DNA of 64,000 nucleotides from Chloroflexota bacterium (GTDB lineage Bacteria; Chloroflexota; Dehalococcoidia; FW602-bin16), in NCBI GenBank assembly GCA_004297765.1, contig SCTZ01000222.1:1-64000 (forward strand), written 5' to 3'. Shown here piece by piece: positions 4,820 through 23,561 of the stretch. Position 1 is the stretch's first letter. Every line of letters begins with the position of its first letter. A program made the translations under genes and the position numbers. The notes beneath the pieces are model-generated. The model saw only the letters and a program-made list of their open reading frames with translations, made no database searches and was not told the DNA's origin.

Positions 4820-4869
4820 AGAGACTTCCTCCGAAGGGATCGCTGGATCGAGAGGATTGGACCTAGCCT

Positions 4870-4989: not shown

Positions 4990-5092
4990 TAAGCTAGGTG
5001 GTTTGTGTGCAGTAAGCTCGCTCGCCGGCGGATTCACTTGCATGACGTGGTCGTGACGGGTCGGGCGGGAGAAATCCATGCGGGAGGCAGAG

Positions 5093-6019: not shown

Positions 6020-6062
6020 TACTACAACGTTACTTCTGGCTTGCTGCTTTGCCCTCTTCCCT

Positions 6063-6159: not shown

Positions 6160-6192
6160 AAAGATAAGCACTCAAACAGAAAGTGATATTGG

Positions 6193-6936: not shown

Positions 6937-7144
6937 ACCACTCTACCTCCTTCGGGTCCGCGGGCCATACCACGTCTGCGATGGAACAGGAGAAGCCTGA
7001 AAGTCCCTCGAAACGCACCTGCCTGGACAAAAGCCGCCGCCGGTGCCGCCTCGTGGGGTGCCGGAAGACAGCGAAAAGGCGTAGGCGAACTAGCGCTGTG
7101 CTACCGACGAATCGATAGTTGGCCATTCCAGCCGGGCCTTTGAG

Positions 7145-7222
7145 TGTCACCCTGAGCTGCAGCGAAGAATCTCCCCTCCGTCCAAGTAACGAGGAGACCC
7201 TTCGCTGCGGCTCAGGGTGACA
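7145..7222. repeat. Palindromic intergenic element, TGTCACCCTGAG...CTCAGGGTGACA
   Basis: Terminal inverted repeats TGTCACCCTGAG and CTCAGGGTGACA plus inner arms GCAGCGAAG and CTTCGCTGC enclose about 78 bp. It belongs to the same family as 6063-6159 and 33250-33278. It could form a long hairpin in RNA, but there is no poly-T at either end. Confidence 0.7.
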
Positions 7223-7377
7223 AATTATCCAGTTCAGGAGTCACAGAACACTAAGCGCGCGCCGAGCGGTCTAGCAAGACATTGGAATCCGCTAGCTGTC
7301 TTATATCACAAAAAGAGACTGCCGTGCAACAGAGAGGATTGTCATCTGTCGTAAGTTATGCAGGCTTGACCAGTCAC

Positions 7378-8562: not shown

Positions 8563-8568
8563 CGCTGG

Positions 8569-8574
8569 ATTATA
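8569..8574 (-). promoter_or_regulatory. -10 element of tgt, leaderless geometry
   Basis: Minus-strand TATAAT is followed by six nucleotides and then the tgt ATG, placing the expected transcription start at or next to the start codon. No good -35 hexamer is seen. Confidence 0.5.
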
Positions 8575-8884
8575 TCACCTTGACGCCGGGCTTTCCTCAG
8601 TGCTACGATCGGCTGGCCGGCAGAGTCCGCTAGGTTCGAGCAAGGAACTCCGGTTCCGACCCTGAGATGGTGGCCATCGTGGTCTACGGCGCCTTCACGG
8701 CGCCGATCTACGACGAGCCTATCGCGCAACAGAAGGCTCTGCAGGCGCCGGAGAAGCATGTGCCGAAAAGCGATGAGCGACATAGGGTGGCGCAGGACAA
8801 CGATCCCCAAGGATCATCGTCCCGCGCTTGGTGTCAAAATGCGCCGACGACCAAGGTGAGCGCACCGCCAAAGTGCGTTCTTTC
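8575..8884. other. Divergent intergenic region, no supported gene
   Basis: This stretch lies between the divergent tgt and the first island gene. Short inverted repeats are visible (GGCGCCTTCACGGCGCC near 8690; ACGATCC...GGATCATCGT near 8800), but frames on both strands carry no recognisable motif. It marks the left edge of the accessory island. I see no integrase, tRNA gene or att-like direct repeat. Confidence 0.4.
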
Positions 8885-8920: not shown

Positions 8921-9415
8921 ATGGCTAGCTACCTGTTAATCCTTTCATGTTCCCAGCGAAAAAGCTCGGTCTCCGGGTTGATTCCAGCTGTTGACCGATA
9001 TGAAGGCGTAAACTTCCGGGTTGTCAGAAAGGCAATGCGTGAGGGCTACTGGCCGAACCGGTTGGACGCTCTGGTTCTATCGGCCAAGTTCGGCCTGATC
9101 GAGTTAGGTACGCCTATTGAGCACTACGATTCGAGGATGACACGAGCGCGCGCGTTGGAGATTCGATCACTAGTCATTCCTGCTATCCTTGAGCGAACGA
9201 GCACTGGACAGTACACTGAGGTTTTCCTCAATATGGGAAGAACGTACAGAATAGCACTTGAGGGATGGGACGCGAGCTTGGATCGATCCATTCGCGTGAC
9301 CTACGCTTCAGGCGGAATCGGACAGAAAGCAGGGGAGATGCGGCGTTGGCTGATCGAAAAAGCAGAGACCGCAAACAATTTGTCCAGCTCACACTTCCCT
9401 TCGATGAGGCAGTAA
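8921..9415 (+). CDS. Small CSxxK-motif protein, DUF6884/archaeosine-synthase-core-like
   Basis: A 164-aa cytoplasmic protein. The N-terminal LILSCSQRK (C10, K14), the central LVLSAKFGLIE (K56) and EHYDSRM (D70) match the pattern of DUF6884/DUF5591-type proteins (CSxxK ... LSAKYGL ... YD), a fold shared with the core domain of archaeosine synthase ArcS, which has a CSxxK motif and acts on preQ0 placed in tRNA by a TGT. Family knowledge is from memory; the residues are seen. It is the first gene of a plus-strand operon ending in a TGT-like protein, which strengthens a role in 7-deazaguanine chemistry, perhaps on DNA. Its 3' end overlaps the next gene by about 70 bp. The alternative start at 8903 lies upstream of the -10 and is rejected. 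Function inferred only. Confidence 0.65.
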   Translation: MASYLLILSCSQRKSSVSGLIPAVDRYEGVNFRVVRKAMREGYWPNRLDALVLSAKFGLIELGTPIEHYDSRMTRARALEIRSLVIPAILERTSTGQYTEVFLNMGRTYRIALEGWDASLDRSIRVTYASGGIGQKAGEMRRWLIEKAETANNLSSSHFPSMRQ

Positions 9416-10899
9416 GCTGCTCCCCGCACAAGCAGCAACCACTAGATGCTCAGCAGATCGCTAGAGAGATCGCTAAGCATCCCCACATCTTTGTTGCACT
9501 TGTACAAAACACCCTCACAGTGGCTCACAGCCTCCGCGACAACTACTTCAGAAATACCGCCGGGTTGGTTTCAAAACTACGCGAACAACTCGGTACAACC
9601 AATGGCGCTGAACCGGGCACACAGCCACTGTTTGCGATTGAGGCTGTCGACCCTAAGCTGGGTTGGGACGATCTGAGGGGAGAGGAGATTGCCTTCATCG
9701 ATGGCGGCATTGGTTCAGTGGAAATCCTGAGCCAAGTGCCGATGTTGCTCCGGGTAGGCACTTACAAGGTCAAGACTGGGGAGACGATTCTCAGTCAACG
9801 CGAAGAATTCGGTTTTTACCCGGTGATATTTGGCGACCTTGCTGGCGGCAGTAAGGAGCGAAAGGATTATCCCGACATTGTGCGAATTATCGCGGAATTG
9901 TTGGGAGTGCTCCACACACTGCATCGCTACCCAGAGCTGGATATCCTGGTTCTGCATGGTCCGCTCGTCTACCTGATGGGCCAGTATGCAGGCCATATTC
10001 CCTTTACCGAGGGGGATATGGACACATACTTGCGAAACTACAGCCTAGATCAGGACCTGAAGACAGAGTTTCAATCAGAAGCCGAGCACATTTATCCGCA
10101 AATGACCGGGCAATGGCGCTCATCGTACTGGTTGGGACGTCTGGAGGGGCAGTACGAGCCGATCTGTCTCATTCGGTTCCTCCTGTGGAAGATCCTGCAG
10201 TTGGCTACTGACGAGAGACGTCCGAAGAAGACGTTGATTTGCGGCGTAGCAGAGCGCGGCACGAGCTCAGAGTTCCTGCGACGTTTCGTATTTCAGAAAG
10301 CGTTCGAGCGCGACCGTGATTTCTTCAACGGCATCTTTGGGCGAAAGGACATTAATTCAGCCAAGGCTGCCGTAGATCGATTGGGGTACAACGATCCACT
10401 GTTACTCTCGATGCTGCTGAGGTCTGGAGAGTACTCTGAGCCTTTCGACATGGACAGCAAGTACCGAGAGTTTAGGGGAGCCATAGGTGGAACGGAAGTA
10501 GATGATGTCAGGGTGGACTACACCGTTTTTCGTCCGGACGGGTCATTCCCGTTTCCTCGGGTTAGCGGTTTCTACTTGCAGGTGTCTGACCACACCTTTC
10601 CCATCCGGATAGAGGTCTTCGGTGACCTGGCCTCTCGGCAGGTACGAGACGTAGCGCAGCGCATATACCTGTATTCGACGCTGCTCCCGGGCTATGCCTT
10701 TCCCGTCGGACTCGATATCGCTGACAAGTTCGCCAAGGTGCCCCAGTGGCTGACCGATGCCTACGGGAAGCTGATCAAGTACCATCTTCGAACGCAGTTG
10801 TACGAGGGTAGGATAACGGATGAGCAGATGCGCCGGATTCTCATTCAGGCTTTATACTTAACCCAGCGGGACTGGCTGTTTCGACCCATAGTTCGGTAA
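9346..10899 (+). CDS. NurA-domain nuclease-like protein (first copy)
   Basis: About 517 aa. NurA proteins are Mn-dependent 5'-3' nucleases that partner with HerA translocases. Seen: EEIAFIDGGIGSVEIL (D119) resembling NurA motif I, LDILVLHGPLVYLMGQY where many NurA proteins have a DG(S/P)L motif, LICGVAERGTSSEFLRRF resembling the basic motif after it, and a C-terminal GFYLQVSDHTFPIRIEVFGD typical of NurA. The His in LHGPL replaces the expected Asp, so catalysis is uncertain. The TTG start at 9346 is chosen because AGGGGAG lies 8 bp upstream; the longer frame from 9265 overlaps the preceding gene by 151 bp and has an unlikely Arg-rich N-terminus. HerA follows 17 bp later, as in archaeal nurA-herA pairs. 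Confidence 0.75.
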   Translation: MADRKSRDRKQFVQLTLPFDEAVSCSPHKQQPLDAQQIAREIAKHPHIFVALVQNTLTVAHSLRDNYFRNTAGLVSKLREQLGTTNGAEPGTQPLFAIEAVDPKLGWDDLRGEEIAFIDGGIGSVEILSQVPMLLRVGTYKVKTGETILSQREEFGFYPVIFGDLAGGSKERKDYPDIVRIIAELLGVLHTLHRYPELDILVLHGPLVYLMGQYAGHIPFTEGDMDTYLRNYSLDQDLKTEFQSEAEHIYPQMTGQWRSSYWLGRLEGQYEPICLIRFLLWKILQLATDERRPKKTLICGVAERGTSSEFLRRFVFQKAFERDRDFFNGIFGRKDINSAKAAVDRLGYNDPLLLSMLLRSGEYSEPFDMDSKYREFRGAIGGTEVDDVRVDYTVFRPDGSFPFPRVSGFYLQVSDHTFPIRIEVFGDLASRQVRDVAQRIYLYSTLLPGYAFPVGLDIADKFAKVPQWLTDAYGKLIKYHLRTQLYEGRITDEQMRRILIQALYLTQRDWLFRPIVR

Positions 10900-10916
10900 G
10901 GCAAGGAGTTACCGTC

Positions 10917-12638
10917 ATGAATAACCAGCGAACGATGGTAGGTACGGTGGTGGGCGAGTCTACCACACAGGAGTTCAGAATAGCAGTCACGCCTGGCGAA
11001 GTTCAAGTTCAGGACCTCATCGCCCTAGACGCACTGGTCGAGGACGAGGGCGGAGAGAAAATGGATATCCGCATTTGGGCCAAGATAGAGGCCATCGAGC
11101 GGATGAACCCACTTTTCCCCCTTGAGTCGGGGCAAGAGCTCGCGGATCTGCGAGTCAATCCGTTTGATACCGTAATCTCGATGTCACGCGAGATGATCAC
11201 GGCCCAATGCCGCATACTTGGATACGAGCAGAAGCAAGAGCATGGCAAGTACCGACCGCTGAAGAAGTTGCGTTATCCGCCTCAGCCGGCATCGTCAGCA
11301 TATCGCCCCGTCAAGGAGGAGTTGCAGCGGCTCATTATGGGCGAACTAGGTGAAGGTCACCGGGCGCATCGTCGACTAGATATTGGCTGGCTATCCGCTC
11401 GGCGGGATGTCGACCTGTTTATCGACGGACACCCTATAGTAGCGCGGCACGTTGCCATCCTGGCAATGACTGGCGCTGGAAAGAGTTGGACGGCGAAACG
11501 GATAGTGGAGCAACTGGCACAAAAGAAATATCCCATCGTGATTTTTGATCCGCACGGGGAGTATGCTAGCCTAGCCGAGGTGGCCAAACTGTCGGGACAG
11601 GTACGCAACTACTACGCCTTCGTTCGTGTGCTCGATGAGGACGCAAGCGATGTCGTAAGGCTTATTGGCGGACTCAGCGGTTCATCGTTGTCGCCTAGGA
11701 TGGAAGATCTGTTTGGCGACTTATTTGAATTCGCCCAGCATATACTGACAGATCCCGAACAACGGCAGGAACTGAGAGATTGGCTGCTACAGATTCGCGA
11801 TAACCAATATCTTTCTCAGTATGGACTTAATGATGATCTGTTCGGCATAGCGACCATAGGCGACTATGCCAGAGAACTGATCATCAGCGGAAATCAGCCC
11901 GTGCTCGCGCAATTGCAGAGTTGGGGGTACAACGGCGTTACAGGTCTGAACAGACGAGACGCAGAAACCCTGAAGGGAATAGCATGGCGTGCTCGCAAAG
12001 CTGCAGCTGCTTTGGCGCGCATGGCGTCTATAAACCGCCGGATCTCAAAGGGACAAGAGGCATTACCGACCGAAACTCGGCAGTTAGTGGATAAAGGACG
12101 GATCAGCGTAATCGGTTTGGCTGGGTATTCGTCCGATATCCGGGCAAGCATATACAGCCTTGTCATGGATAAACTATTCAATGACCGCGTCCAGGATTCG
12201 ATTCGATTGCCATTCCTGTTGGTTCTGGAAGAAGCACACAACTTCGTGCCAGACACCCCGCTGAGCGATCCGGAGAAACAGGCGTTACAAATCACGAGGC
12301 AGATTGCGCAAGAGGGCCGAAAGTTTGGCGTCGGCCTGGTCATGATAAGCCAACGTCCGTCGCGACTGGATCAGACCGCTCTTTCTCAGTGCAACTCCTT
12401 TGTGATCATGCGGTTAGTGAACCCAGCGGATCAGCAGTTTGTTCGACGAGTGATTGAGACCATCGGGGAACAAGAAGCAAGGCTACTACCTGACCTCGAT
12501 GTCGGGGAAGCCATCATTTCTGGGCAGAGTGTGCAGTTCCCATTACTAGTCCAGATCAAGCCACCTCAAGCGCGAAGCAAGAAGGAGGAAGAGGATCTGA
12601 TCCGTGATGTCCTGAACTATACGGCGGGTAAGAACTAA
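10917..12638 (+). CDS. HerA-like DNA translocase/helicase ATPase (first copy)
   Basis: A 573-aa FtsK/HerA-superfamily ATPase, expected to form a hexameric ring pumping duplex DNA to NurA. Seen: an N-terminal HAS-barrel (residues 1-110), Walker A MTGAGKS (184-190) in a DUF87-type core, IFDPHGEY (209-216), Walker B LLVLEEAHNF (434-443), a sensor/arginine region ISQRPSRLDQTALSQCN (477-492) and a C-terminal charged tail. All catalytic motifs are intact. A good AAGGAG precedes the ATG. It follows the NurA gene by 17 bp and the TGT-like gene begins 2 bp after its stop. By eye, codon use is more AT-rich than in the neighbouring housekeeping genes, consistent with horizontal transfer. Confidence 0.9.
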   Translation: MNNQRTMVGTVVGESTTQEFRIAVTPGEVQVQDLIALDALVEDEGGEKMDIRIWAKIEAIERMNPLFPLESGQELADLRVNPFDTVISMSREMITAQCRILGYEQKQEHGKYRPLKKLRYPPQPASSAYRPVKEELQRLIMGELGEGHRAHRRLDIGWLSARRDVDLFIDGHPIVARHVAILAMTGAGKSWTAKRIVEQLAQKKYPIVIFDPHGEYASLAEVAKLSGQVRNYYAFVRVLDEDASDVVRLIGGLSGSSLSPRMEDLFGDLFEFAQHILTDPEQRQELRDWLLQIRDNQYLSQYGLNDDLFGIATIGDYARELIISGNQPVLAQLQSWGYNGVTGLNRRDAETLKGIAWRARKAAAALARMASINRRISKGQEALPTETRQLVDKGRISVIGLAGYSSDIRASIYSLVMDKLFNDRVQDSIRLPFLLVLEEAHNFVPDTPLSDPEKQALQITRQIAQEGRKFGVGLVMISQRPSRLDQTALSQCNSFVIMRLVNPADQQFVRRVIETIGEQEARLLPDLDVGEAIISGQSVQFPLLVQIKPPQARSKKEEEDLIRDVLNYTAGKN

Positions 12639-12640
12639 CA

Positions 12641-13699
12641 GTGCTTGTCGTGGCGGGCCTCACGCTCAAGAACCTAAATCCCCGCGTTTGGGACCCGAAA
12701 TCGCCATACTACATTCCAGAACTCCGGGCCGTTATGGTTTCGTATGCAGATTTCCGCCGAATGCCCGCTCGAAGGAAGGCTGTGATGGAGAAGGGAATCC
12801 ATGCATCCCTGAACATATCTGCGGAAGTGAGCGTCTACCTGGACAACGGCTCCTTCGGCCTTTTGGGCACTGAAGACACGGTATCAAGACATGAACGCGA
12901 AATCCTGAGAAAGGAGTATGAGGAATTCGTTGGCAAGGGCAAACCCGATTGGTGCCCTATCCCGCAGGATTTCATTCCCACCCCCCAAATGACACCAGAT
13001 CGTCAGCGCCGGTGCTTCCTGCGCACAATGCGAGTCAATCGGGACTACTCACATGATGGTTATGTGCCGGTTGTTCACGTGGGCCAGTTCTTAACGAGAT
13101 ACCTTACCGCGATGCAAAGGCACGGGACGCTATCTTTGAAGCAGTCGATCGCGATCGGTGGAATCGTGCCAAACCTACTGCGCGCACCGAAAGCGATGCC
13201 CTACGTTGACATCTTGGCAGGACTCAAACGAGTCCGCGATACATTCGTCGACAGGAAGATACACATTTTCGGTGTCGGCGGAACGGCCACGCTTCACCTT
13301 GCGATCTTGCTGGGAATGGATTCCGCGGATTCAAGCGGATGGCGCAACCGTGCCGCTCGGGGACTCGTGCAATTGCCAGGCACCGGGGATCGCATGGTAG
13401 CCGATTTAGGCAGTTGGCGTGGACGAGCGCTCACCAAGGACGAACTGGAAGCGTTGCGTGCCTGCCCTTGTCCGGCTTGTGCGCAGTTCGGGTTGGATGG
13501 GCTGAAGGCGCGCGGCATGGACGGATTCTGCAACCGGGCGACGCATAATCTGTGGGTCTTGCTCACGGAGGCAAGAGATATAGAGTCCCATCTCTCAGAT
13601 GGTAGCTACGCCCTATGGCACGAGCGTCACCTAGATAATTCAACTTACTTGCCACTCATCCGGCTAGCTCTGGACCAACATGTGTCACCCCTCCCGTAG
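12641..13699 (+). CDS. Divergent TGT-family (DpdA-like) base-exchange protein
   Basis: A 352-aa protein that aligns by eye with the tRNA-guanine transglycosylase barrel. VYLDNGSFG (D68) matches the substrate-pocket DSGGF; SIAIGGIVPNL matches YAIGG; IHIFGVGGTATLHLAI (GVG 211-213) precedes GMDSADSSGWRNRAARG, in which D227/D230 match the DMFDxxxPTRxARNG nucleophile block; the zinc site is kept as CPCPAC (C275, C277, C280) and H302 in ATHNLWVLL. The segment between the Cys cluster and the His is shorter than in tRNA enzymes. DpdA proteins are TGT relatives that insert preQ0 into DNA, and this context (HerA-NurA, CSxxK protein, separate canonical tgt nearby) favours DNA over tRNA as substrate. The start is GTG, 2 bp after the HerA stop. 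Not a duplicate of tgt: identity is confined to motifs. Confidence 0.78.
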   Translation: MLVVAGLTLKNLNPRVWDPKSPYYIPELRAVMVSYADFRRMPARRKAVMEKGIHASLNISAEVSVYLDNGSFGLLGTEDTVSRHEREILRKEYEEFVGKGKPDWCPIPQDFIPTPQMTPDRQRRCFLRTMRVNRDYSHDGYVPVVHVGQFLTRYLTAMQRHGTLSLKQSIAIGGIVPNLLRAPKAMPYVDILAGLKRVRDTFVDRKIHIFGVGGTATLHLAILLGMDSADSSGWRNRAARGLVQLPGTGDRMVADLGSWRGRALTKDELEALRACPCPACAQFGLDGLKARGMDGFCNRATHNLWVLLTEARDIESHLSDGSYALWHERHLDNSTYLPLIRLALDQHVSPLP

Positions 13700-13753: not shown

Positions 13754-16700
13754 CTAAGCACTCAAGATGCCTTGGTCATGGTCGCCATCTACTCCCGATG
13801 ACACGTAACCGTCTGAACCCGACCCCGGACTTAAAACGGTCGCAGTTCCCCCCTGCTTCTGAACGAACCAGCGGTACGGAAAATGGCGTTGTACTACGGT
13901 GCTGTGCGATGAGATAATAACGCTACTGGCAAGCCCAAGACTCAAGATGCCACGACTTGTGTCCGTCAGTTGCAGCGCTAGAGCGTCACGCTTGTGTTCG
14001 TCGAGCGCTCCAAAGCCTTCGTCAATGATGATGGTGCCCGCCTGCCCATGTGCGACGCGCTTATGCAGCGCCAGGGCCAGCGCTAAAGCGACGCGGAACT
14101 GCTCACCTCCCGACAGGAATTCGAAAAACCTGGGCTGAGCTACAGGGTCGCTAGTATCTACGATATGGATGTCCTGAAGGTGAACGCCACGGCCCCGACG
14201 TGCGGCACCGAGACGTATACGTAGCGGGTCTCCCAGCAAGGACAGAACCTCGTTTACCTCCTGAGCGATTTGCTGCTGCGCTTGTTCAGCCACCTGAACT
14301 TGAATCGGTCCACCTTCCTTCAAGAGGTCGGCAAGCTCAGAGTACGTCTCTGACTCCTCCGATGCGTCATTGATCTGCCGCTCGTACGTAGCGGATTTGG
14401 CACGCCGGTCAGTCAACCCATTCAGGTCCTCCTCGAGGCGCCTCTTGATATCGTTCTGAGAGAGTTCTGCCTCGCGCGCTTCCTTTTCGCACGCGTGGGC
14501 ATCCTCGACAGGAATGCGGCACTTTAGATCAATTGCATCCATCGCTTGCAGTTTTTCCGTCAACTGGGCTTCGACCTGAGTCAACTGTCCACTCGCCCGT
14601 TCAAGTTCAGATAACCGCTCAGCTGATTCGCGTCGACTTTCCACACTCTGTCGTTCCGTCTCGTAAGCTTCGCGCGAGGCTAGGGCGGTAGCCCAAGCTG
14701 ATCCGAGTTTCGCGGCGATATCATCAGCCTCCCCGTCTGCCGTGACGGCCTCACGCTTTCTTGAATCTGCACTGGCTCGCCCCGTCTGTATCTTTTCCGC
14801 GAGGGCCGTCACTTCCGTCAACAGGACGCGGATAGCTTCTTGAGCGCATCTCGACTTCTGATCCAGCAATTCAATCCTTGGGCTCCACTTCTCTGCCCAC
14901 TTCTGCGCTGCAGCCGCTCGCTCCTGCAGGTCCTTGGGCTCTTCAGTCTCGCCAAGTGGCGGTGCATCGGCAGTCCGTCGGCCTCGTAGCGTCTTCAGGG
15001 TCGCGTTCATCTCCCGGACGCGTTGCCTCGCCCGATTGAGAGCGTCCGCTTCAGACTCTACGTTGTGCAAGCCATCGGCAACGCGGTCTCTTTCGTCGGC
15101 AACCCACCGTAGCGTGACTAGGTCGAGTTCTCCTTCGTATTCACTGTGATGCTTGATGATTTCAGAACGAAGGTTGTCGGATTTCCGAGTAACTTGATCG
15201 ACGTTGGCCTCTAATTCGCGCAGGCCTTGCCGAGCGGATACAACCCGCCGTTGCGCATGCTCTTGCGTCCTCTGTCCCGACCGAAGATGCTTTGCGGTTC
15301 TCTCTTCTGCTGCCTTAGAGTCTTCGTGCTGCCGTTTTGTCTCCTGCAGTTTCCACTGCAGCGACTGTAGCGTCGTGGTCTCCGTGGCAAGCATTGCCTT
15401 CACATGAGCATGTCTGTCCTCGTCCAGTTCCTGGCCGCAGACGGGGCATTCGCCTTCCCCTCCAGAAAGACGGCCGTGGCTCTGGATGCGACCCTTGAGC
15501 TGCGCTACTTGCTCGTTCAACTGTTCGACTTGCTTCCCCAAGACAACACGGTCCATATGCGCCTGCCGTGCGCTCTCGTTCCTCTGTTCAACCACGGGGC
15601 CTACGATGGCACGACGCCGCTCGGCGACAGAGATGCACGCTTTCGCTGATGCGGCCGCTGCGTTAGCTCGCTCGAAATCCTGCCGGTAGGTGGCGAGCAA
15701 TTCCAGCCGTACCAGCGCGTTTTCCCTTTTTCGCCACTCAGCCAACTCGGTGTCTTTGCCGTCAAGGAGTTCGACCTCTCGTGTCGTGCCTACTAGGCCG
15801 CATCGAGTCTCGGCTATTTCTGCTTCCAGAGAAAGGGCAATCGCCTGATTGCGCGTAGCTTCTACACTGCGACGCAAGGCGGGCAGTGCTTTTTCATTGA
15901 GTACACGGTAGTGTATCTCCGCCTTGGACAGTGCTGCTTGTTGAAGCCGACGGGCCTTCTCGTTGGTGTCGGCCTGGGCCAGCGCCTCTTGCGCTTCGAC
16001 GCGCGTCCGTCCAGCCTCCTTCCTGCACCTCCAATGCCGATCGAGCATGGCCGCTGCGCGATCCCATTGTGCCACCAAATCAGCGTCACGACGGATGGCT
16101 GCCGCGTCTCCTATCAACTGTACAAACCGCTTCCGTTGCGCAAGCAATGCCTGTCGGTTCGCTTCAAGGCCGTTCCAACGCTCCGCGCCCCGCGAAATTG
16201 CCGCAGCATGCTCAACCTGCTGCTGTGCCATCTCCACCTCGGTGCTCGCGGATTCAAGCCTACATTCCAGCGCGTCCAAGGCCTCGTCTGAAACATCGCC
16301 CAAGGCGCTCAATCCCCCCTGCGCCTCCTTTTGGCGATCACTGGCTCGCCCAGCGCACTTTTGGGCGCGCTGGGACAGCTCGGTGTATCGGCTTAGGTCG
16401 AGCAGGCTAGCAAACCGTTTGATCCTGTCCGTCGCTGTCCCGTACTCTGAACGTGATCCCCGCAGAAAAAACGCAGTTTGTCCTTGTCGCAGAAATATGG
16501 CCGAGTGGAAGAGATCAACGTCCGGGAGGCGCGGCTTCAGCCAAGTCCACGCTGCCGCGACGCCATCGCCCACGTTGATTGGCCGCCATGTGCCCACGTG
16601 CTGGTCCCATGATTCTACCTGTCCACCGAGGTTGCCTTTCCTTGCATCCAAATGGCAAGTCACTCGGTAGCGCTCCTGTCCCAACTGTACCACGACCTGC

Positions 16701-16915
16701 GCCATCGCCCGCTGGGACCCATGCTTTACGAGCAAATTCACCCCCTGATCGCCCCCTCGGTGTCTTCCATATAGCGCGTACTCGACACCGTCGAACAAAG
16801 CTGATTTTCCAGATCCGTTTTCGCCGCAGACTAGCCAGAGCGGTGATTCGGTGAATTCGACCGCGCTGTCTTCATGGCTAAGAAAGTTCTTCAGCCGGAT
16901 CGCCTCAATGATCAT
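13754..16915 (-). CDS. sbcC: Rad50/SbcC-like SMC ATPase
   Basis: A 1053-aa Rad50/SbcC protein that tethers and opens DNA ends for Mre11/SbcD. Seen: Walker A GENGSGKS (31-38), two long Glu/Arg/Gln-rich coiled-coil arms, a central zinc hook CPVC (490-493) in GEGECPVCGQEL, the ABC signature FLSGGEQFRVALALALAL in the C-terminal lobe and Walker B GTIIIDEGFGALDE. Length matches SbcC (~1050) rather than eukaryotic Rad50. ATG 16915 overlaps the sbcD stop as ATGA, so translation is coupled; the longer frame (to 16942) is not needed. Last gene of a minus-strand operon. It meets the TGT-like gene tail to tail with a 54-bp gap. The C-terminal tail after TVVQRHFPYRWFV is Gly/Ser/Asp-rich and poorly conserved. 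Confidence 0.93.
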   Translation of the reverse strand: MIIEAIRLKNFLSHEDSAVEFTESPLWLVCGENGSGKSALFDGVEYALYGRHRGGDQGVNLLVKHGSQRAMAQVVVQLGQERYRVTCHLDARKGNLGGQVESWDQHVGTWRPINVGDGVAAAWTWLKPRLPDVDLFHSAIFLRQGQTAFFLRGSRSEYGTATDRIKRFASLLDLSRYTELSQRAQKCAGRASDRQKEAQGGLSALGDVSDEALDALECRLESASTEVEMAQQQVEHAAAISRGAERWNGLEANRQALLAQRKRFVQLIGDAAAIRRDADLVAQWDRAAAMLDRHWRCRKEAGRTRVEAQEALAQADTNEKARRLQQAALSKAEIHYRVLNEKALPALRRSVEATRNQAIALSLEAEIAETRCGLVGTTREVELLDGKDTELAEWRKRENALVRLELLATYRQDFERANAAAASAKACISVAERRRAIVGPVVEQRNESARQAHMDRVVLGKQVEQLNEQVAQLKGRIQSHGRLSGGEGECPVCGQELDEDRHAHVKAMLATETTTLQSLQWKLQETKRQHEDSKAAEERTAKHLRSGQRTQEHAQRRVVSARQGLRELEANVDQVTRKSDNLRSEIIKHHSEYEGELDLVTLRWVADERDRVADGLHNVESEADALNRARQRVREMNATLKTLRGRRTADAPPLGETEEPKDLQERAAAAQKWAEKWSPRIELLDQKSRCAQEAIRVLLTEVTALAEKIQTGRASADSRKREAVTADGEADDIAAKLGSAWATALASREAYETERQSVESRRESAERLSELERASGQLTQVEAQLTEKLQAMDAIDLKCRIPVEDAHACEKEAREAELSQNDIKRRLEEDLNGLTDRRAKSATYERQINDASEESETYSELADLLKEGGPIQVQVAEQAQQQIAQEVNEVLSLLGDPLRIRLGAARRGRGVHLQDIHIVDTSDPVAQPRFFEFLSGGEQFRVALALALALHKRVAHGQAGTIIIDEGFGALDEHKRDALALQLTDTSRGILSLGLASSVIISSHSTVVQRHFPYRWFVQKQGGTATVLSPGSGSDGYVSSGVDGDHDQGILSA

Positions 16916-18102
16916 TGTCGAGCCTCGCTTGTCTCGCTCCACAACGTTTCAAACGCGGACGCCAGGCGGGTAAGCTTTGCAGGTTGCTCACTATACGCAC
17001 TCTGCAAGTATCTCGTGACGGTACCGGGCACGTCTCCGGGATCTAGCCACGCTTCGTATTGCGGGGCAAGTGGCTCGGCATCGAACGCCCAACGAATAAG
17101 CAGGCGGGGTGCTGACCGGCGGATTTGCGCCTCCACTGCTCCACGCGATGCGACGGGCACTCCGGCAATCTCGAGTTCACCTAGCGGATCTATAGCAGTA
17201 ACGGTGGAGCAGAAGTTATCCACGGCATCGACGCCGTCCAGCGTCTGCCGGACAAAAGGAGTGCAGGTAGACAGCGCTAGGGGCTCTACTGTCGCCACTC
17301 CTCCAGGCGAGGTCGGCACCTCCACCAGCAATACCTGCGGAGTGTAATCTCTCTCCCCTAGGTCCCAGCGGTCCGGCGCGCCAGAATACCATGTAGGCTT
17401 GCCCGCACCAGCTATTTCTTGGGTCAGATGCAGATGGCCCATGGCATTATAACTTGTGAACTGCGGGAGGCGGGACGGTTGTAGCCACAACTCCCGGTCG
17501 TAACCGGTCTCGAACGCCAGATCAGGCCTTAACTGGGCCCCTGTTAGCAGCATATGCCCTGTGAAAACGGAGGGTATCCCCGGGGTCGCTTTGCGATACA
17601 GTTGCTCCACGTAGTACGCCAGCAGTCCAGATAACCCGGCCATCTGCTCCTCGGGTTCCGCCTCGACCTCACGTGGCTGCTCCCGGAGCCATCGCGGCCC
17701 AATATATGGGAGCGCAACAATTTGGAGCCTCTGGTCGAATACTCGATAGATACCAGGCAAGTCTGCGACCATCAACGGCCATTGCGAACCACCTGCCATC
17801 TCGCTCACGAGGAGGCGCATCAGTTGGAACAGATCGAGCGGGTCGTGATTGCCCCGCAACAAGAAGACGACCCGGCCTCGCTGCAGGTGGGTCCTCAGCT
17901 GCTCCAGAAACCGCCTTGCAACCTGGGCATGGTTTCCCTCTACGCGATCGGCAAAGACATCACCGGCTACTAGCAGAATATCGACGTTGTGCTGGTCACA
18001 AAGGCTCAGCACCTCAGCCAATACACGTTGTTCGTCTTTCTGCCGTGACTTGCCACGCCAGACGCTCCCTAAATGCAGATCAGAAGTATGCATCAGCTTC
18101 AT
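16912..18102 (-). CDS. sbcD: Mre11/SbcD-like exonuclease subunit
   Basis: A 396-aa Mre11/SbcD metallophosphoesterase, the nuclease partner of SbcC/Rad50. The phosphoesterase motifs are all present: HTSDLHLG (D8, H10), LLVAGDVFAD, LLRGNHDPLD, VFTGHML and MGHLHLTQEI. The C-terminal capping and Rad50-binding segment follows. Length is normal. The ATG at 18102 is preceded by AGGTGAG. It starts 42 bp after the HerA-like gene and overlaps sbcC by 4 bp. Order HerA-Mre11-Rad50 with NurA upstream copies the archaeal herA-mre11-rad50-nurA gene neighbourhood, which is uncommon in bacteria. Confidence 0.93.
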   Translation of the reverse strand: MKLMHTSDLHLGSVWRGKSRQKDEQRVLAEVLSLCDQHNVDILLVAGDVFADRVEGNHAQVARRFLEQLRTHLQRGRVVFLLRGNHDPLDLFQLMRLLVSEMAGGSQWPLMVADLPGIYRVFDQRLQIVALPYIGPRWLREQPREVEAEPEEQMAGLSGLLAYYVEQLYRKATPGIPSVFTGHMLLTGAQLRPDLAFETGYDRELWLQPSRLPQFTSYNAMGHLHLTQEIAGAGKPTWYSGAPDRWDLGERDYTPQVLLVEVPTSPGGVATVEPLALSTCTPFVRQTLDGVDAVDNFCSTVTAIDPLGELEIAGVPVASRGAVEAQIRRSAPRLLIRWAFDAEPLAPQYEAWLDPGDVPGTVTRYLQSAYSEQPAKLTRLASAFETLWSETSEARQ

Positions 18103-18144: not shown

Positions 18145-20070
18145 TCACCCTTCCGGCAAATTCAGAGGGAAGTCGTACTGTGTGGTCCCATGATTGTCTT
18201 CATCCGTGAACGCGGATTGCAGATCGGCAGCTGACAGCGACTGGCGGTCAGCCTCCGCTTCCTTCATAGCCCACGCGGGGAACGGTACGACTATGTTCAT
18301 CCAGCCACGACTCATTAATACCATCTTCTCCTCAGGACGAAGCGTGAGGGCACGCGCCTTCTGCGGCCGACTCAGCAAGTTGCTCCACGTCGGCGTCTCC
18401 AGTTCAACTGGGCTGCTAGCGCCCACTGCCTTTATCTCGCTGTTGCCAAAGATCGTTTCAGAAATCCTGCTCGCATGCTGTTGGGCGCCAAGGAGGATGA
18501 TGCCTTGGCTTCGCAACTGCGCTGCCACATGCTCGAAGAGTCGAGTGATTGGGTCCCGCGCTCCGCGAGGCGCGTACAGACCAAGCTCGTCCAGCACGAG
18601 AAAGTACACCTGCCCAGGGATGCGGGAACGCATTTGGTGCTCCTTCACCTGGTGCAACACCGCGGCCACGACGAACCTCCGAAGATCGTTGGGGAGGAGT
18701 GCTATGTCGATCACCAATGGATCGGTCGTTCCCTGAGCAAGGACCCGTAAGGGACGTCCCCACCCTGTCCCATGGTCGAAGATCGATTCTCCCTCGCGCT
18801 CTAAGATCAATCCCAATCGACTTAACAGAGCCCGACAGGTGGCGAAAGCGTGGATACGGTGGTCCCGTGCGGGATGGTCAGGGTCCCGAAGTGCGCCGCG
18901 GAGCCATGTAACCAACTCCGCGAATGATTGTGGCACACCGCCACCAGAGCGCAACTGGAGGCCAGCGGGGTGTTCGTGGTCGGCATTGCAGTCCTCAGCG
19001 ATTTCTCCCAGTACGTGGTCGAGCATGGCCATCATTGACTCGCTACTCTGAGTCTCCTCGGAGAATAGGAAGCTCCAGAGACCAAAACGAATCACGTCCG
19101 ATAGAGTCCAGTAATAGGTGTGAGTCTGCCGCTGAGGCTGGCAAGGTCGTAGCACACGTGCCACACCACGGTTTACTGGTCCGGACCCAACAGAGCAGGG
19201 CGCGAAGAACTGCGCGCCGGTGAAGGGTTGCGGCGAGACGCCCATGCGTTCCCATAATGCCCGTCCCTTGGCATCCAAGTGTCGGTTCCTAGCGTCGATG
19301 AACATCAGGTCGTTGCCTTTTACATTGAAGACGATAGGTCTGACACTGAAAGGCTCTCTCTCCGGATTACCGTCATCCCAACGGTGGGTCAAGTCGATGA
19401 GCGAACGCAGGATCACCAGCAAGAAGCTGGATTTGGTGCCGTGTCCTGCCTGGCCAGTGACATTCATGTGCCCGGCGCGATCCCCGCAAAGGTCGCGCAG
19501 GTCGATTCGAGCAACCCCTACCGTGCCCGCGCCGCCATTTCGCAGGAGTCCGATGGGCAGGCTCCAATCCTGCTGAGTCATGACATCGGTCATGCTTTCG
19601 TAGTCGTACGCCTTACCAGCCTCCGCCTCGCTGGATAGGAACACGGCGCTTTGCTCTACCGGCGGGGTCAAGAAGGGAGGATCGGTGCCAAGGATTGTTG
19701 CTTCTGCAAAGGTTACGCCTTCAAGAGCAAAGGGAGGCTCGTAATCCAGATCGCCGTCAAAGGCATCCATCTCCTCATCGATGCTCCGCCTGCGGCTGCG
19801 TCGGTACACTTCTTCCACCACACCATAGTAGGTGATCTGCCTGCCACCGACACTGCTATCCGCATGCACCAGTTGAGTCTTCTCCACCAGCGTCTCTTGC
19901 GGTACCCAGAAGAAGAATCGCCCCGAGGTGGACTCGAACCGGACGGGCGAGGCGACACGACCGATACATGGCGGAACTGTGCCTCCCGTCAACTCGCACG
20001 CGCTGTCTTCAAATTGCTCGCCGGGAATGGGCGGATCGGGAATCGCCTTATTCATCGATTCCTGAGTCAT
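18145..20070 (-). CDS. HerA/DUF87-like ATPase (second copy) with atypical P-loop
   Basis: A 641-aa HerA-type ATPase. N-terminal beta-rich region (about 40-130), then MNVTGQAGHGTKSSFLLVIL (P-loop at 206-215), an extended middle, Walker B YFLVLDELGLYAPRG, GIILLGAQQHASRISETIFGNSEIKAVG as sensor region, and VMLMSRGWMNIVVPFPAWAMKEA near the end. The P-loop reads GxxGxGTKSS, with a Thr between the last Gly and Lys, unlike the canonical GK(S/T) of the first HerA copy. I recall related bacterial ATPases with ATKTS at this position, so it may be a subfamily trait. The start at 20070 is fixed by GGAGGTG 6 bp upstream. It lies between the second NurA (50 bp) and Mre11 (42 bp), giving a probable translocase role in the end-processing complex. 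Confidence 0.82.
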   Translation of the reverse strand: MTQESMNKAIPDPPIPGEQFEDSACELTGGTVPPCIGRVASPVRFESTSGRFFFWVPQETLVEKTQLVHADSSVGGRQITYYGVVEEVYRRSRRRSIDEEMDAFDGDLDYEPPFALEGVTFAEATILGTDPPFLTPPVEQSAVFLSSEAEAGKAYDYESMTDVMTQQDWSLPIGLLRNGGAGTVGVARIDLRDLCGDRAGHMNVTGQAGHGTKSSFLLVILRSLIDLTHRWDDGNPEREPFSVRPIVFNVKGNDLMFIDARNRHLDAKGRALWERMGVSPQPFTGAQFFAPCSVGSGPVNRGVARVLRPCQPQRQTHTYYWTLSDVIRFGLWSFLFSEETQSSESMMAMLDHVLGEIAEDCNADHEHPAGLQLRSGGGVPQSFAELVTWLRGALRDPDHPARDHRIHAFATCRALLSRLGLILEREGESIFDHGTGWGRPLRVLAQGTTDPLVIDIALLPNDLRRFVVAAVLHQVKEHQMRSRIPGQVYFLVLDELGLYAPRGARDPITRLFEHVAAQLRSQGIILLGAQQHASRISETIFGNSEIKAVGASSPVELETPTWSNLLSRPQKARALTLRPEEKMVLMSRGWMNIVVPFPAWAMKEAEADRQSLSAADLQSAFTDEDNHGTTQYDFPLNLPEG

Positions 20071-20120
20071 GCTATACACCTCCATGGGATGCCGCCGAGA
20101 ATGCCGTAGGTATGCGACCT

Positions 20121-21176
20121 TTACAGCGCTGTCAATCTATAGAATCTTTGCATAAGAATGCTCCCTGAGGTAAAGAGCGCCCCAAGAAGTTGTTCGGCCC
20201 GTACTATCGGGTGGAGTGAAACAGGCGCTCTCGCGTAACTACTATCTAGAGAGCGATAAGCGCAAAGCGTACGGCACAGGTGCGCCACATACTCAACATC
20301 AGGACTGCACGAGCTTGCCCGCGCTTCAAACCAATGCAATGGCAGCTCAATCCTCACCAGTCCCCAGTTCGGCATTGTGCTTTGTGCTCCCGAAAGGCGA
20401 AGATACCACGAGACCACCGGCAGCTTCGCCTTTGGCAGCGAGAACAGTGGGGTGCGCTCACCGGGCTCAAGATCATAGAGAAGTTGCAGTCCCCTGGCAT
20501 GGAGGTAGTTTCGAGAATGCGTTTTTACGACGCCCACCACAGGAGACCATTGTTGATCGAATCCACCCGCACGCGGTTCAAGTCTCCCATCGACTATGGT
20601 AGGCTCAAGACTCGCCCGAGCCAGCACAGCTTCCTCCAGAGAACCCATTTCCGTGTTCGACCGATTCTGCGCCGCTTTCCGCATCTCTTCGAAGTCGTAG
20701 CTCAGCCGTCCCTGCGGAGGCCATGCCGAGAGCAGACGAAACCCGTGCCGCTGAAGGGCTGTTGCGAAATCCTCTACCTCGTCCCACGGAAAGGGCTCGA
20801 CCACCATGGAAACCACGCGATCGACGGCTGTGAACTCGCGGCGGCACGTCCCGTCTACCACACGAACTGATACGGCGCCGATCTCCGCGAGCCGAACTGG
20901 TACAGGAAATCCACCAGGCGCACGTAGCCAAGCTATGGTTTGACCCACATCCTTGCCGTCGATAAACCGGCGGGGGCACTCCGGCCAAGTACGCGGACCC
21001 CAGCCCACTGGTGTCTCGATCGGTTGCGCCGTCCAGGCGTTCGCGTCCATCTCGTAGTCGAGGAACACGTCTCCCGCCTCGTTTACGTCCTCCGTGGGAG
21101 CGTCCAACAAAGACGGTTGTGGGGCATATGGCGCTACCCTCCGGGCCGCATAGTCCCGCAGGAACTCTAGTCCCAT
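20121..21176 (-). CDS. NurA-domain nuclease (second copy)
   Basis: About 351 aa. NurA motifs: RRFIDGKDVGQTIAW (Asp about residue 73), a central acidic and hydrophobic block, TIVDGRLEPR (DGxL motif with the Asp intact), VVGVVKTHSRNYL (the basic motif following it) and a C-terminal VSWYLRLSG...NWGLVRIELP block. This copy therefore keeps the metal-binding Asp that is His in the first copy. ATG 21176 has GAGGG 7 bp upstream; the GTG one codon earlier is an alternative. It follows the ImmA-type gene within 10 bp and precedes the second HerA gene, so it is part of the seven-gene operon. Confidence 0.8.
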   Translation of the reverse strand: MGLEFLRDYAARRVAPYAPQPSLLDAPTEDVNEAGDVFLDYEMDANAWTAQPIETPVGWGPRTWPECPRRFIDGKDVGQTIAWLRAPGGFPVPVRLAEIGAVSVRVVDGTCRREFTAVDRVVSMVVEPFPWDEVEDFATALQRHGFRLLSAWPPQGRLSYDFEEMRKAAQNRSNTEMGSLEEAVLARASLEPTIVDGRLEPRAGGFDQQWSPVVGVVKTHSRNYLHARGLQLLYDLEPGERTPLFSLPKAKLPVVSWYLRLSGAQSTMPNWGLVRIELPLHWFEARASSCSPDVEYVAHLCRTLCAYRSLDSSYARAPVSLHPIVRAEQLLGALFTSGSILMQRFYRLTAL

Positions 21177-21186
21177 CACTGTTCCC

Positions 21187-21897
21187 TCATGGCAATCCCA
21201 GATCAGCCAGACGCCGCCGTATCGCCTGCTGGCTTACAAGGAACTCCGATGCGAGACGACGTGCCAGCACCTCCCTCCTAGCGCCGCATAGGTCGGTGTA
21301 CCGGTTCGTTAGTGCCCGACAGGTCTTCTCGGGCATAAGCACCCCGGCCGCAAATCGATTGGCCTCGTCTTCAAATCGCTCTACATCCGTGCTATCGATC
21401 GGCTTCGCCGCGTAGTCGATAGTGATCCGCCCGACACCAGCGACCGCGTGCGTGCTATCGTCCGGCGGAGCCAACTCCTCATCGAATTCCAGGTTATCGT
21501 CCCCCCTATTGGCCGAACCTGCTTCGATCAATGGCATGAAATGAAGCAGGAAATGCCCCAGTTCGTGTGCAACAGTAAAGCGGCGACGCACCAGCGGGTC
21601 TCCTTGATTGACGAGGATCCATCCGCCAGCGGTGTTCGCATAAAGGAAGCCGGCAAGCGATACCGTCGAATCTCCGGACGTGACCATATCCCGCCCTGCC
21701 CGAGCCGCAAGATAAGTCGCAGCAGTGTGTCGGGTCAGGCATGACACTTCGTTAACGACCAGTGGCTGGGCCGCTATCAGTAGACGCAATGGGCTTATGG
21801 TGACTTCCGTTCCCTCTGTTTTCAATCCAGCCGCTGCGTAGGCTGCAGCAATAGCCATCGCCACGTTGTCCGCGCTTGGTGTAGCTGTCTCACTCAT
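21187..21897 (-). CDS. ImmA/IrrE-family zinc metallopeptidase
   Basis: A 236-aa ImmA/IrrE (Peptidase_M78) protein. The zinc motif HEXXH is present as FTVAHELGHFLLHF, followed by a downstream ERFEDEANRFAAGVLMPEK segment typical of the family, whose Glu is the probable third ligand. Known members cut transcriptional repressors in response to DNA damage: ImmA of ICEBs1 cuts ImmR, and PprI/IrrE of Deinococcus cuts DdrO. No helix-turn-helix is fused here. It overlaps the preceding unknown gene by 8 bp and is followed by NurA-HerA-Mre11-Rad50, so a role as the damage or infection switch of this operon is a reasonable inference. Its substrate is unknown; the upstream unknown protein is one candidate. 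Confidence 0.85.
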   Translation of the reverse strand: MSETATPSADNVAMAIAAAYAAAGLKTEGTEVTISPLRLLIAAQPLVVNEVSCLTRHTAATYLAARAGRDMVTSGDSTVSLAGFLYANTAGGWILVNQGDPLVRRRFTVAHELGHFLLHFMPLIEAGSANRGDDNLEFDEELAPPDDSTHAVAGVGRITIDYAAKPIDSTDVERFEDEANRFAAGVLMPEKTCRALTNRYTDLCGARREVLARRLASEFLVSQQAIRRRLADLGLP

Positions 21898-22483
21898 TAC
21901 GCACCTCTCTTCGGCTACGTCGCCGAGGGCGCGAACGAGCGCGTGCCGCTGCTAGTTGCACTTCGCCTCGTTGGCGCGCAATTGCAAGCATCAGCGCCGC
22001 TCGCCGGAAGAGTTCCCAATACCGAGCGCTCGCCATCACCTGGAGTCGTGTTGCCAGGGAGAGGATCGTGGCCGAGGTAACCGGTGTAGGCAGAAGCTCC
22101 ATGCTTGCTAGGAGTGTCCGATTGACCACCAAGTCCGCCGGCAGCAAAGGCTGCCCGATAGCATGCTCCGCCTGAAGTCTAGCGGCTACATCCCCTATGG
22201 TGATCGGTGCCGGGACCTCGTCCGAGCCTACGAGCGCGCTTGGCAGATGCCGAAGCATGAGCTCACGTATGAGCCTAGATTGCTCGCTCACCGGCTGGAG
22301 TCCTGCATCTGCGTGCAAAACGGCGTTTACATCTGCGATCTGCCGATCAAGTTCCGCATCGGAAATCGCCTCGGTCAGTACTTTGGCCACCGCCTCGAAA
22401 TCCCCTCTATCGAAGGCTTGCACATACTCGTACAGCGAAAGTTCTCGGCGACGCTCATCATTTACATCGCGGTTGCCGTGCAT
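21890..22483 (-). CDS. Unknown helical protein between sigma factor and ImmA-type peptidase
   Basis: A 197-aa soluble, predicted mostly helical protein that I do not recognise. It begins MHGNRDVNDERRRELSLYEY, has an acidic N-terminal half, a middle with AITIGDVAARLQAEHAIGQPLLPADLVVNRTLLASMELLP-like segments, and an Arg-rich C-terminus (RARSRPRRRSRREVRNE) that could bind nucleic acid. There is no membrane segment and no zinc-binding HxxxCxxC anti-sigma motif. Its ATG directly abuts the sigma-factor stop (TAAATG) and its end overlaps the ImmA-type gene by 8 bp. This position is typical of an anti-sigma factor or a sigma-associated regulator, so it is a candidate partner of the sigma factor and substrate of the peptidase. 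That is inference from position only. Confidence 0.55.
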   Translation of the reverse strand: MHGNRDVNDERRRELSLYEYVQAFDRGDFEAVAKVLTEAISDAELDRQIADVNAVLHADAGLQPVSEQSRLIRELMLRHLPSALVGSDEVPAPITIGDVAARLQAEHAIGQPLLPADLVVNRTLLASMELLPTPVTSATILSLATRLQVMASARYWELFRRAALMLAIARQRGEVQLAAARARSRPRRRSRREVRNE

Positions 22484-23122
22484 TTACTGATCCTCTTTGC
22501 CAGCCCGCTCGGCGCGGTGGTATTCGGACGAAAGCCGGGCGATAGCCCGGCTAAGACGGACCCTTGCCGCGCCTGGTTTGATGCCCAGCGCGGCCGCGAG
22601 CTCGTCTCCCCGGAGGTTGTGTACAAACCTGTAGGTCAGCACGATCTGGTCGCTGGGTGACACGAGGTCTAGGAGCTCCTGGACGTGCTCCCATTCCAAC
22701 GTGGCCATGTCGTACATTCTCGTAAGGCTCTCCCCGTACGTCTCCCCGTCGGCAGCATCTGCGACTGAATCCAGAGTGTGGTATGAGTGTCGTCGCTGCT
22801 CCTGCATGTCGTGCCTGCGGTACTCGCGCAGGATGTTGGTGGCGATCCCGAGTAGCCAAGCATGGACAGATCGTGAGGGATCGAAGTGCTCCGCTCGGTC
22901 CAATGCACGGGCTACTGCCTCCTGGAGCACTTCCTCGGCCAAGGCAGTAATATCCTCCCGCTTTCTCGGCAGTCTCAGTTGCTCGCCCATTCGCCATATC
23001 AAGACCTCGATGCCACGTCGCAAATCGTCGCAGACGAGCTCGATACCCTCGCATAGGGTCTTCATCTCAACCGTTCGCACTGACGCCCGCGACTGCATTT
23101 CGGGCATGTCGTTCGGTTTCAC
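22484..23122 (-). CDS. ECF-like sigma-70 family RNA polymerase sigma factor
   Basis: About 212 aa from the preferred start. Region 2 is seen as LAEEVLQEAVARALDRAEHFDPSRSVHAWLLGIATNILREYRRHD, and region 4 as LVSPSDQIVLTYRFVHNLRGDELAAALGIKPGAARVRLSRAIARL. Regions 1 and 3 are missing, as in ECF sigma factors. The start is uncertain: the frame extends to a TTG at 23224, but GTG 23122 has AAGGTGA just upstream and ATG 23107 is also possible; a TATAGT lies near 23180 on this strand. It is the first gene of the seven-gene end-processing operon, so it may direct transcription of that operon or of other genes when released. Confidence 0.8.
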   Translation of the reverse strand: MKPNDMPEMQSRASVRTVEMKTLCEGIELVCDDLRRGIEVLIWRMGEQLRLPRKREDITALAEEVLQEAVARALDRAEHFDPSRSVHAWLLGIATNILREYRRHDMQEQRRHSYHTLDSVADAADGETYGESLTRMYDMATLEWEHVQELLDLVSPSDQIVLTYRFVHNLRGDELAAALGIKPGAARVRLSRAIARLSSEYHRAERAGKEDQ

Positions 23123-23561
23123 TACTTCACCTTTTCCCAAGCCCGGGACTATGGCAACTCTGCATTCAATCTTCTCACTATAGTATTGGTAGTTGCTCCC
23201 CGTTTTGTTACAGGTGGATATCAATTACATTGTGTGCTGGCCGACTCGCCGGTTTCTTGGATGGGCAGGATGCCCAGGCAAGGCGATGCGAAGGTAACGG
23301 ACGACTGGCAAGTTGGACTGACGAGAACTTGCCTGTGCCCTTTCAGCCATTATCGCCTCATTCGACCAAAGCTGCAAGAAGGCGCAGTCCTGGCCGATAT
23401 CCCGAGCACCTGGTGTGATCTTGTCAATTCTGTGGATAACTGCCTGTTCAACTCGCCCCCTCTTAGATAGAATGAAACCTGCTAGATGATCCACCTCGTA
23501 GGTCGTCGCAGCTTCCAGGTCAGACATTCACCCCGCGGGTGCTGAACAGGAGTACCAACCG
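23123..23561. other. Divergent intergenic region between the island sigma factor and dnaE
   Basis: No supported gene; short frames on both strands lack motifs. It contains one perfect DnaA-box-type 9-mer (TTATCCACA on the minus strand, 23431-23439) and a weak -10-like TAGAAT at 23468-23473 for dnaE. It marks the right edge of the accessory island; no tRNA, integrase or clear direct repeat is visible. Confidence 0.45.
23431..23439 (-). promoter_or_regulatory. Single DnaA-box-like site upstream of dnaE
   Basis: The 9-mer TTATCCACA on the minus strand is the consensus DnaA box. It stands alone about 120 bp upstream of dnaE, so it is not an origin. DnaA regulation of dnaE is possible, but a single 9-mer can arise by chance. 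Confidence 0.3.

Follow-up and report, generated by a model that had tools for sequence, protein, structure and literature searches.

Genes of the locus

A 64,000-nucleotide stretch of DNA from a Chloroflexota bacterium (assembly GCA_004297765.1, contig SCTZ01000222.1, positions 1 to 64,000; hereafter the window) carries a cassette in which a TGT-fold base-exchange enzyme and a DUF6884 protein are encoded together with a HerA translocase and a NurA-like nuclease. An earlier note, made from the sequence, had described four tightly packed plus-strand genes at this place, and all four open reading frames are indeed present, with each product scoring above its own Pfam cut-off. The first gene (8921..9415) encodes a DUF6884 protein of the DpdC/YaaA superfamily with CSQRK and LSAKFGL motifs (PF21818, E = 1.9e-9); in-frame ATG codons are found at 8903 and 8921, and homologues agree with the latter. 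The second gene (~9346..10899, start approximate) encodes a NurA family nuclease (NurA1; PF09376, E = 6.6e-5), and its frame opens at 9265, within the DUF6884 gene, so that it overlaps the 3' end of that gene. The hexameric DNA translocase HerA1 (10917..12638; DUF87/HerA_C, 6e-26; PADLOC HerA, 2.9e-67) is preceded by the ribosome-binding-like sequence GGCAAGGAG, and the gene for the TGT-like protein (TGTL; 352 amino acids; 12641..13699; PF01702, E = 5e-7), which represents a new subfamily, starts with GTG 2 bases past the HerA1 stop codon. The translocase and nuclease assignments of the earlier note are borne out by the same HerA and PF09376 matches.

A set of seven minus-strand genes (13754-23224), which we refer to as the B body, is convergent with this cassette. 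Its first gene encodes a sigma-70 family (ECF-like) factor (22484..23224; Sigma70_r2, 5.4e-8; r4_2, 8.3e-8), followed by p197 (21890..22483), a 197-amino-acid protein without a family match for which a 35% identical protein is found at the same place in Calothrix, and by an ImmA/IrrE-type metallopeptidase with an HELGH motif (21187..21897; PF06114, 1.5e-16); p197 is a possible ImmA target or anti-sigma-like regulator. The set continues with a second NurA (NurA2; 20121..21179), which carries an FIDGKDVG motif, a second HerA (HerA2; 18145..20085), an SbcD/Mre11 nuclease (16912..18102; TIGR00619, 2.7e-27, over the cut-off), and an SbcC/Rad50 ATPase with a zinc hook (13754..16942; TIGR00618, 5.9e-36), the gene that converges on TGTL. 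Where the cassette and the B body converge, no terminator was visible. HerA2 has no Pfam match and was assigned through its family profile, which matches the HerA of PDB entry 7f6d (7f6d_B, E = 2e-60). The identity of NurA2 rests on the match of its family profile to the NurA of the same entry (7f6d_H, E = 2.2e-5), which is the sole match of that profile; PF09376 gave an E value of 0.0012, below the cut-off, and the AlphaFold2 model reached a pLDDT of only 32. Profiles of NurA2 and NurA3 showed no significant similarity to the NurA1 profile. Genes of the HerA and NurA families thus lie side by side in the window.

Conservation and distribution of the cassette

The search for TGTL relatives covered whole genomes and plasmids as well as phages and virus contigs. 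Three architectures were found in Chloroflexota and Cyanobacteria, each with a DUF6884 gene at one end, a member of the TGTL clade at the other, and a HerA/NurA-type module between them. Form A (DUF6884-NurA1-HerA1-TGTL) is present in the Chloroflexota genomes G198, G094, and G230, and the order is unchanged in G016, whose DUF6884 protein is more divergent (PF21818, 2.1e-19); the earlier note had proposed a search for the four-gene order in other genomes, and these four carry it, with NurA1 copies 47-48% identical and next to HerA1, and HerA1 copies 50-54% identical in an unchanged gene order. Form B (DUF6884-sigma-p197-ImmA-NurA2-HerA2-SbcD-SbcC-TGTL), found in Nostocales, is complete in Calothrix PCC 7103, a 40-kb Aulosira laxa plasmid, and a Chlorogloeopsis contig; SbcC adjoins TGTL in Calothrix and on the Aulosira plasmid as it does in the window. 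Form C (DUF6884-HerA3-putative nuclease-TGTL) occurs in the cyanobacterial genomes G488, G606, and G616, and its nuclease is a candidate only, by a DGS motif.

The window has form A and the body of form B side by side, and because the same two end genes flank the B body in Nostocales, the B body belongs with the four-gene cassette. The extent given in the earlier note therefore stands for the four genes but misses the adjacent SbcCD, HerA, NurA, ImmA, and sigma factor genes. As three diverged middle modules have been swapped between DUF6884 and TGTL and the end genes are kept across forms A, B, and C, the base enzymes are retained while the DNA machine that they enclose varies.

Linkage was counted over cellular loci for which upstream DNA was at hand, namely the window, G016, G094, G198, G230, G323, G400, G401, the Aulosira plasmid, a decayed copy in Calothrix FI2-JRJ7, G488, G606, and G616; G402, whose locus is spread across contigs, was left out, as were G521 and G800, both of which start inside TGTL. 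DUF6884 is linked to TGTL in all 13 of these usable loci, and HerA is present in 11, the remaining two being decayed copies. A HerA-NurA translocase-nuclease hence accompanies TGTL in every intact locus, with the form C nuclease counted as a candidate only. Defence genes tend to lie close together, and parts A and B of the window run towards each other, as might be seen if unrelated defence genes had met by chance at a hot spot for islands. This explanation is contradicted by the conserved gene order and by the end genes, which are the same two in all 13 usable loci, drawn from two phyla and from plasmids. Since tested cyanobacterial hosts have only 0-2 other DUF6884 genes per multi-megabase genome, the complete linkage excludes chance co-occurrence, and we consider this explanation ruled out.

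Distribution of the cassette is very sporadic. Besides the window's own genome, 5 of 400 genomes of the phylum Chloroflexota carry it, as do 5 of 386 cyanobacteria; within the window's class the only carrier among 393 genomes is the window's own. Named carriers include Calothrix sp. PCC 7103, Chlorogloeopsis fritschii PCC 6912, and Aulosira laxa NIES-50. The form B contig of Chlorogloeopsis fritschii PCC 6912 (L003/L050; 44869 bases) is probably a circular plasmid, because its two ends, both of which fall inside sbcC, join within that gene. This contig also encodes a 1407-amino-acid protein with a weak NB-ARC match.

The TGT-like enzyme and its DUF6884 partner

TGTL scored 29.6 bits against PF01702, for which the gathering cut-off is 26.3. 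When an AlphaFold2 model of TGTL (12 sequences in the input, pLDDT 84.7) was compared with the PDB using Foldseek, the top matches were all TGTs, including the archaeosine TGT 1iq8 (E = 1.6e-11, probability 1.00) and the DNA preQ0 insertase DpdA 7ui4 (E = 1.8e-9), followed by many tRNA TGTs; the TGT fold proposed in the earlier note is thus supported. The catalytic aspartate and zinc ligands that the note had recognized are also real features of the family, as D68, D110, H146, and D230 and the zinc ligands C275, C277, C280, and H302 are invariant (D68, D230, and the zinc ligands in 13 sequences), and D68, D110, D230, and the zinc ligands line up with 1iq8. According to the alignments, D68 (12842..12844), which lies in an LDN motif, is the counterpart of the aspartate in the TDSGG motif of TGTs; D230 (13328..13330), the predicted nucleophile in DSSGW, aligns with the DS of 1iq8, and the CxCxxC ... 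H zinc site (13463..13546) with its CSCPVC ... HNLW.

Profile alignments also place TGTL motifs opposite those of phage 9g DpdA, an enzyme that inserts preQ0 into DNA, yielding archaeosine when it acts with Gat-QueC (PMC6884629). The PVxH histidine (H146) faces PCFH of the phage enzyme, at a position where the canonical Tgt of the window has IVQGG, and DSSGW faces DSSSW. This motif likeness may point to a DNA-type TGT and is suggestive only. In a TGT tree, TGTL formed a well-supported clade of its own, with the deep branching blurred by long branches. Two other identities for TGTL were considered and rejected: it is not DpdA proper, which is ruled out by the DpdA equivalog cut-off and which in cyanobacteria is a different fusion of ~700 amino acids, nor is it a duplicate of the canonical tRNA Tgt encoded by the adjacent tgt gene (7378-8562), as it falls into a distinct clade and its relatives lie far from tgt. 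A Patulibacter match (L007) is an ordinary tgt.

With regard to the DUF6884 protein, C10, K14, S54, and G58 are invariant across 11 cassette copies. The earlier note had correctly picked out a CSxxK/LSAKFGL protein, but the likeness to the core of archaeosine synthase (ArcS) that it saw did not hold; the ArcS domain DUF5591 gave 17.2 bits against a cut-off of 26 (E = 0.0047), so membership in the ArcS family was rejected and the protein is assigned to DUF6884 (PF21818). DUF6884 proteins are relatives of YaaA with CxxxK and LSAxxG motifs (PMC11701544), and DpdC has been assigned to the same family (PMC11888242); matches of the PADLOC DpdC profile are weak (1.4e-4 to 2.4e-3, the latter for the window protein). 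Independently of the cassette, DUF6884 occurs together with DNA-type TGTs in three other contexts. Cyanobacterial DpdA (L054-L058, ~700-737 amino acids) has a DpdC/DUF6884-like domain fused N-terminally to the TGT domain (hhalign against DUF6884, E = 5e-9; DpdC profile, 1e-8). Chlorogloeopsis, which is also a carrier of form B, has a queE-queD-folE-queC-DpdA2-like TGT-DUF6884-ParB cluster (L062; G401:C57, 7236-11588) that is probably a preQ0-in-DNA locus. Haloarchaeal plasmid clusters (L017, L018) encode DUF6884 beside or within DpdA-type proteins, with a BrxC/D ATPase.

Most cassette DUF6884 proteins are ~250 amino acids long (L021-L023, L042-L044, L050-L052) and have a conserved C-terminal domain of ~90 residues without a Pfam match (motif WYV...RVxPKWLVSQLTGLPxxxF), which the window copy lacks; this extension could bind DNA.

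TGTL and DUF6884 might instead modify tRNA or phage RNA, with HerA-NurA as a separate, co-travelling defence module. The best sequence match of TGTL among solved structures is the archaeosine tRNA enzyme 1iq8, and its best NCBIfam match is TIGR00432. Nevertheless, a Pfam scan of the 352 amino acids found no PUA or other RNA-binding domain, the PVxH and DSSxW motifs are DpdA-like, the partners of DUF6884 are those of DNA systems, and the link to DNA-translocating nucleases survives three module swaps; we thus regard an RNA target as improbable.

Possible base supply

Of 12 hosts, 8 have a QueC gene. Import of the base would be needed in the other four, G094, G198, G230, and G323. In three of these four, a gene of the VUT family, the family of the preQ0 carrier YhhQ (PMC5372724), lies directly before the DUF6884 gene, and G198 and G230 have no VUT gene other than this cassette-side one.

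Two further loci were observed that encode TGT variants of 392 and 342 amino acids (L048 in G206 and L049 in G214, respectively) with large ATPase and helicase-like genes; in L049, the PADLOC DpdA profile matched the 342-amino-acid TGT (1.4e-7) and a VUT transporter is present (1.5e-53). Both are probably Dpd-like loci.

Genomic setting, mobility, and a phage copy

The 8-24 kb region of the window, which is bounded by canonical tgt (7378-8562, minus strand) and dnaE (from 23562, plus strand), looks like an inserted island because its G+C content (54-59%) is lower than that of the remaining window (60-67%). An encapsulin-type shell protein (PF04454, 1.4e-67) is encoded just left of the island (5078-6019), and two tandem, near-alike transporter genes (27451-28794 and 28946-30295) lie right of dnaE. 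Patchy distribution and plasmid copies of the cassette favour a role in defence. In G323, where the cassette is decayed, the genes between the remnants of NurA1 and TGTL encode a methylase and a restriction enzyme of the NgoMIV type (8.3e-103; L025, 8216-11536), as if one system had been replaced by another in place.

A TGTL gene was also found on a tailed-phage contig with terminase and major head protein genes (L015; IMGVR_UViG_3300016466_000585), and its product is closest in the tree to that of the form C genome G488. The phage contig has neither HerA-NurA nor DUF6884; a phage with only the presumed marking enzyme would suggest mimicry of the mark. Further virus scans yielded no TGTL-bearing contig besides this one. 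In the 1699-8662 region of the phage contig, type IV CRISPR genes (Cas11, Cas7, three Cas5, and two Cas8) and two PAPS-reductase (CysH) genes lie directly upstream of TGTL.

TGT chemistry could, in principle, serve for the removal of bases and not only for their insertion. TGTL and DUF6884 could thus form a Type IV-like system that recognises or removes phage 7-deazaguanine while HerA-NurA degrades the phage DNA, and phages with DpdA and 7-deazaguanine DNA do exist (PMC6884629). By contrast, VUT carriers, together with the QueC genes of 8 of the 12 hosts, point to base supply, and a phage that carries TGTL would be unexpected if TGTL were an enzyme of attack; we therefore consider such a system quite unlikely.

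Proposed function

We propose that the cassette is a mobile defence system guided by a DNA modification, most likely a 7-deazaguanine base, and that HerA-NurA, alone or joined by Mre11-Rad50, serves as its nuclease. To this reading we assign a probability of about 0.58, and it builds on the presence, order, and predicted folds of the parts. TGTL keeps the catalytic aspartates and zinc site of TGTs and is encoded with DUF6884 in every usable cellular locus, and a role in DNA modification is favoured by the kinship of DUF6884 and DpdC, the DNA-type TGT partners of DUF6884, the VUT genes, and the phage TGTL. More specifically, and only tentatively, with odds that we place somewhat below even, the cassette may represent a new class of 7-deazaguanine restriction-modification system, in which a DpdA-like TGT and a DpdC-like DUF6884 protein mark host DNA, an interchangeable HerA-NurA module, on its own or with Mre11-Rad50 controlled by ImmA and the sigma factor, destroys unmarked DNA, and the marking enzyme has been acquired by a phage as a means of escape.

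In such a system, TGTL would replace guanines of the host DNA with a 7-deazaguanine base, for instance preQ0, supplied by the QueC pathway of the host or by VUT-type import, and DUF6884 would either convert the inserted base further, as DpdC does with dPreQ0 to dADG, or check it. HerA-NurA would load on unmarked DNA, for example at an entering end, and would then translocate and degrade it. In form B, blocked ends may be opened or trimmed with the help of Mre11-Rad50 (SbcDC), and expression of the genes may be turned on by the sigma factor together with p197 and ImmA, the last of which possibly senses single-stranded DNA in the manner of Deinococcus PprI.

Several observations weigh against this proposal. 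TGTL reaches only 19.6 bits against the DpdA equivalog NF041059, for which the cut-off is 200, and its closest solved relative by sequence, 1iq8, is a tRNA enzyme. G094 has neither QueC nor VUT, and a canonical tgt is present in all 12 hosts, so that VUT may serve tRNA modification too; in Calothrix sp. PCC 7103 this tgt is the sole TGT gene besides TGTL. Neither DpdB nor a recognisable sequence-specific endonuclease or sensor of unmodified sites, by which unmarked DNA could be distinguished, was seen among the cassette genes. Finally, HerA-NurA-Mre11-Rad50 is also the archaeal set for break resection.

This last point leads to DNA repair, the main rival explanation and a serious one for form B. 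A repair cassette would use DUF6884, as a YaaA/YfjM-like protein, to bind abasic or mismatched bases and TGTL to remove or exchange damaged guanine, while the nucleases resect ends and ImmA and the sigma factor provide induction after damage. HerA2 and NurA2 fall into the same family as the pair whose structure is 7f6d, the archaeal resection set consists of HerA-NurA-Mre11-Rad50 (PMC2288612), YfjM, a DUF6884 protein, has been identified as one of the proteins that interact with DNA lesions (PMC11701544), and form B includes both a sigma factor and ImmA, whose relative IrrE/PprI senses single-stranded DNA and controls DNA damage genes (PMC10904395). A repair role is, however, difficult to reconcile with the very sporadic distribution and plasmid carriage, with base enzymes that stay while the nuclease module is swapped, and with a phage that carries TGTL alone, and VUT genes beside the cassette in hosts without QueC are hard to square with removal of damaged guanine. 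We thus consider repair unlikely overall, although less so than a Type IV-like system or an RNA target. The earlier note had named restriction and repair as the alternatives; these were the right two, and the evidence leans to defence based on modification.

If the proposed defence function is correct, the cassette would join DNA 7-deazaguanine marks with end-resection machines, two fields that have so far been kept apart. It would also indicate that a machine with an established part in recombination, HerA-NurA(-Mre11-Rad50), is able to act as effector where a cell marks its own DNA, and would provide a concrete role for DUF6884 proteins, an unexplained family.

Comparison with known systems

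Our literature search, which did not extend to subscription journals, found no description of the cassette gene set, or of DpdA, HerA, and NurA together. The cassette resembles Dpd systems in combining a TGT-fold enzyme with a protein of the broad DUF6884 family that includes DpdC, in its link to preQ0 supply, and in its patchy, island-borne occurrence. It differs from them in lacking DpdB, a ParB/DndB-like ATPase, which was not found among the cassette genes of the window or of the relatives, and in that PADLOC and Pfam identified none of dpdD-dpdK among the window proteins, where HerA, NurA, and SbcCD are encoded instead. The statement of the earlier note that no known Dpd partner is present consequently holds for DpdB and dpdD-dpdK but needs qualification for DpdC, given that one of the four genes encodes a DpdC-like protein of the same broad family, DUF6884. 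In addition, a HerA-NurA nuclease part, with or without SbcCD, is not part of Dpd, and the TGTL score falls well short of the DpdA equivalog cut-off. Phage 9g DpdA shares with TGTL the LDSGAF/LDNGAF, PxxH, GG(L/I)V, and DSSxW motifs; unlike TGTL, which forms a separate clade, it does not have the CxCxxC...H zinc site.

BREX-Related Capture (BRC) systems also combine a HerA/FtsK translocase with a TGT and have a proposed 7-deazaguanine self-mark (PMC12839542). However, the BRC components PglZ, DUF6079 (BrxC-like), STAND-NTPase, DUF4007, and GNAT are all absent from the cassette, and BRC has neither NurA nor DUF6884, with no DpdB or DpdC homologue reported (PMC12839542). The archaeal HerA-NurA-Mre11-Rad50 operon groups the same four protein families as the B body (PMC2288612), whereas the B body is flanked by TGT and DUF6884 genes, includes ImmA, sigma factor, and p197 genes, and is found on bacterial plasmids and islands. 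Judged by its gene content, the cassette thus appears to be a variant of the DNA 7-deazaguanine systems that is a member of neither Dpd nor BRC.

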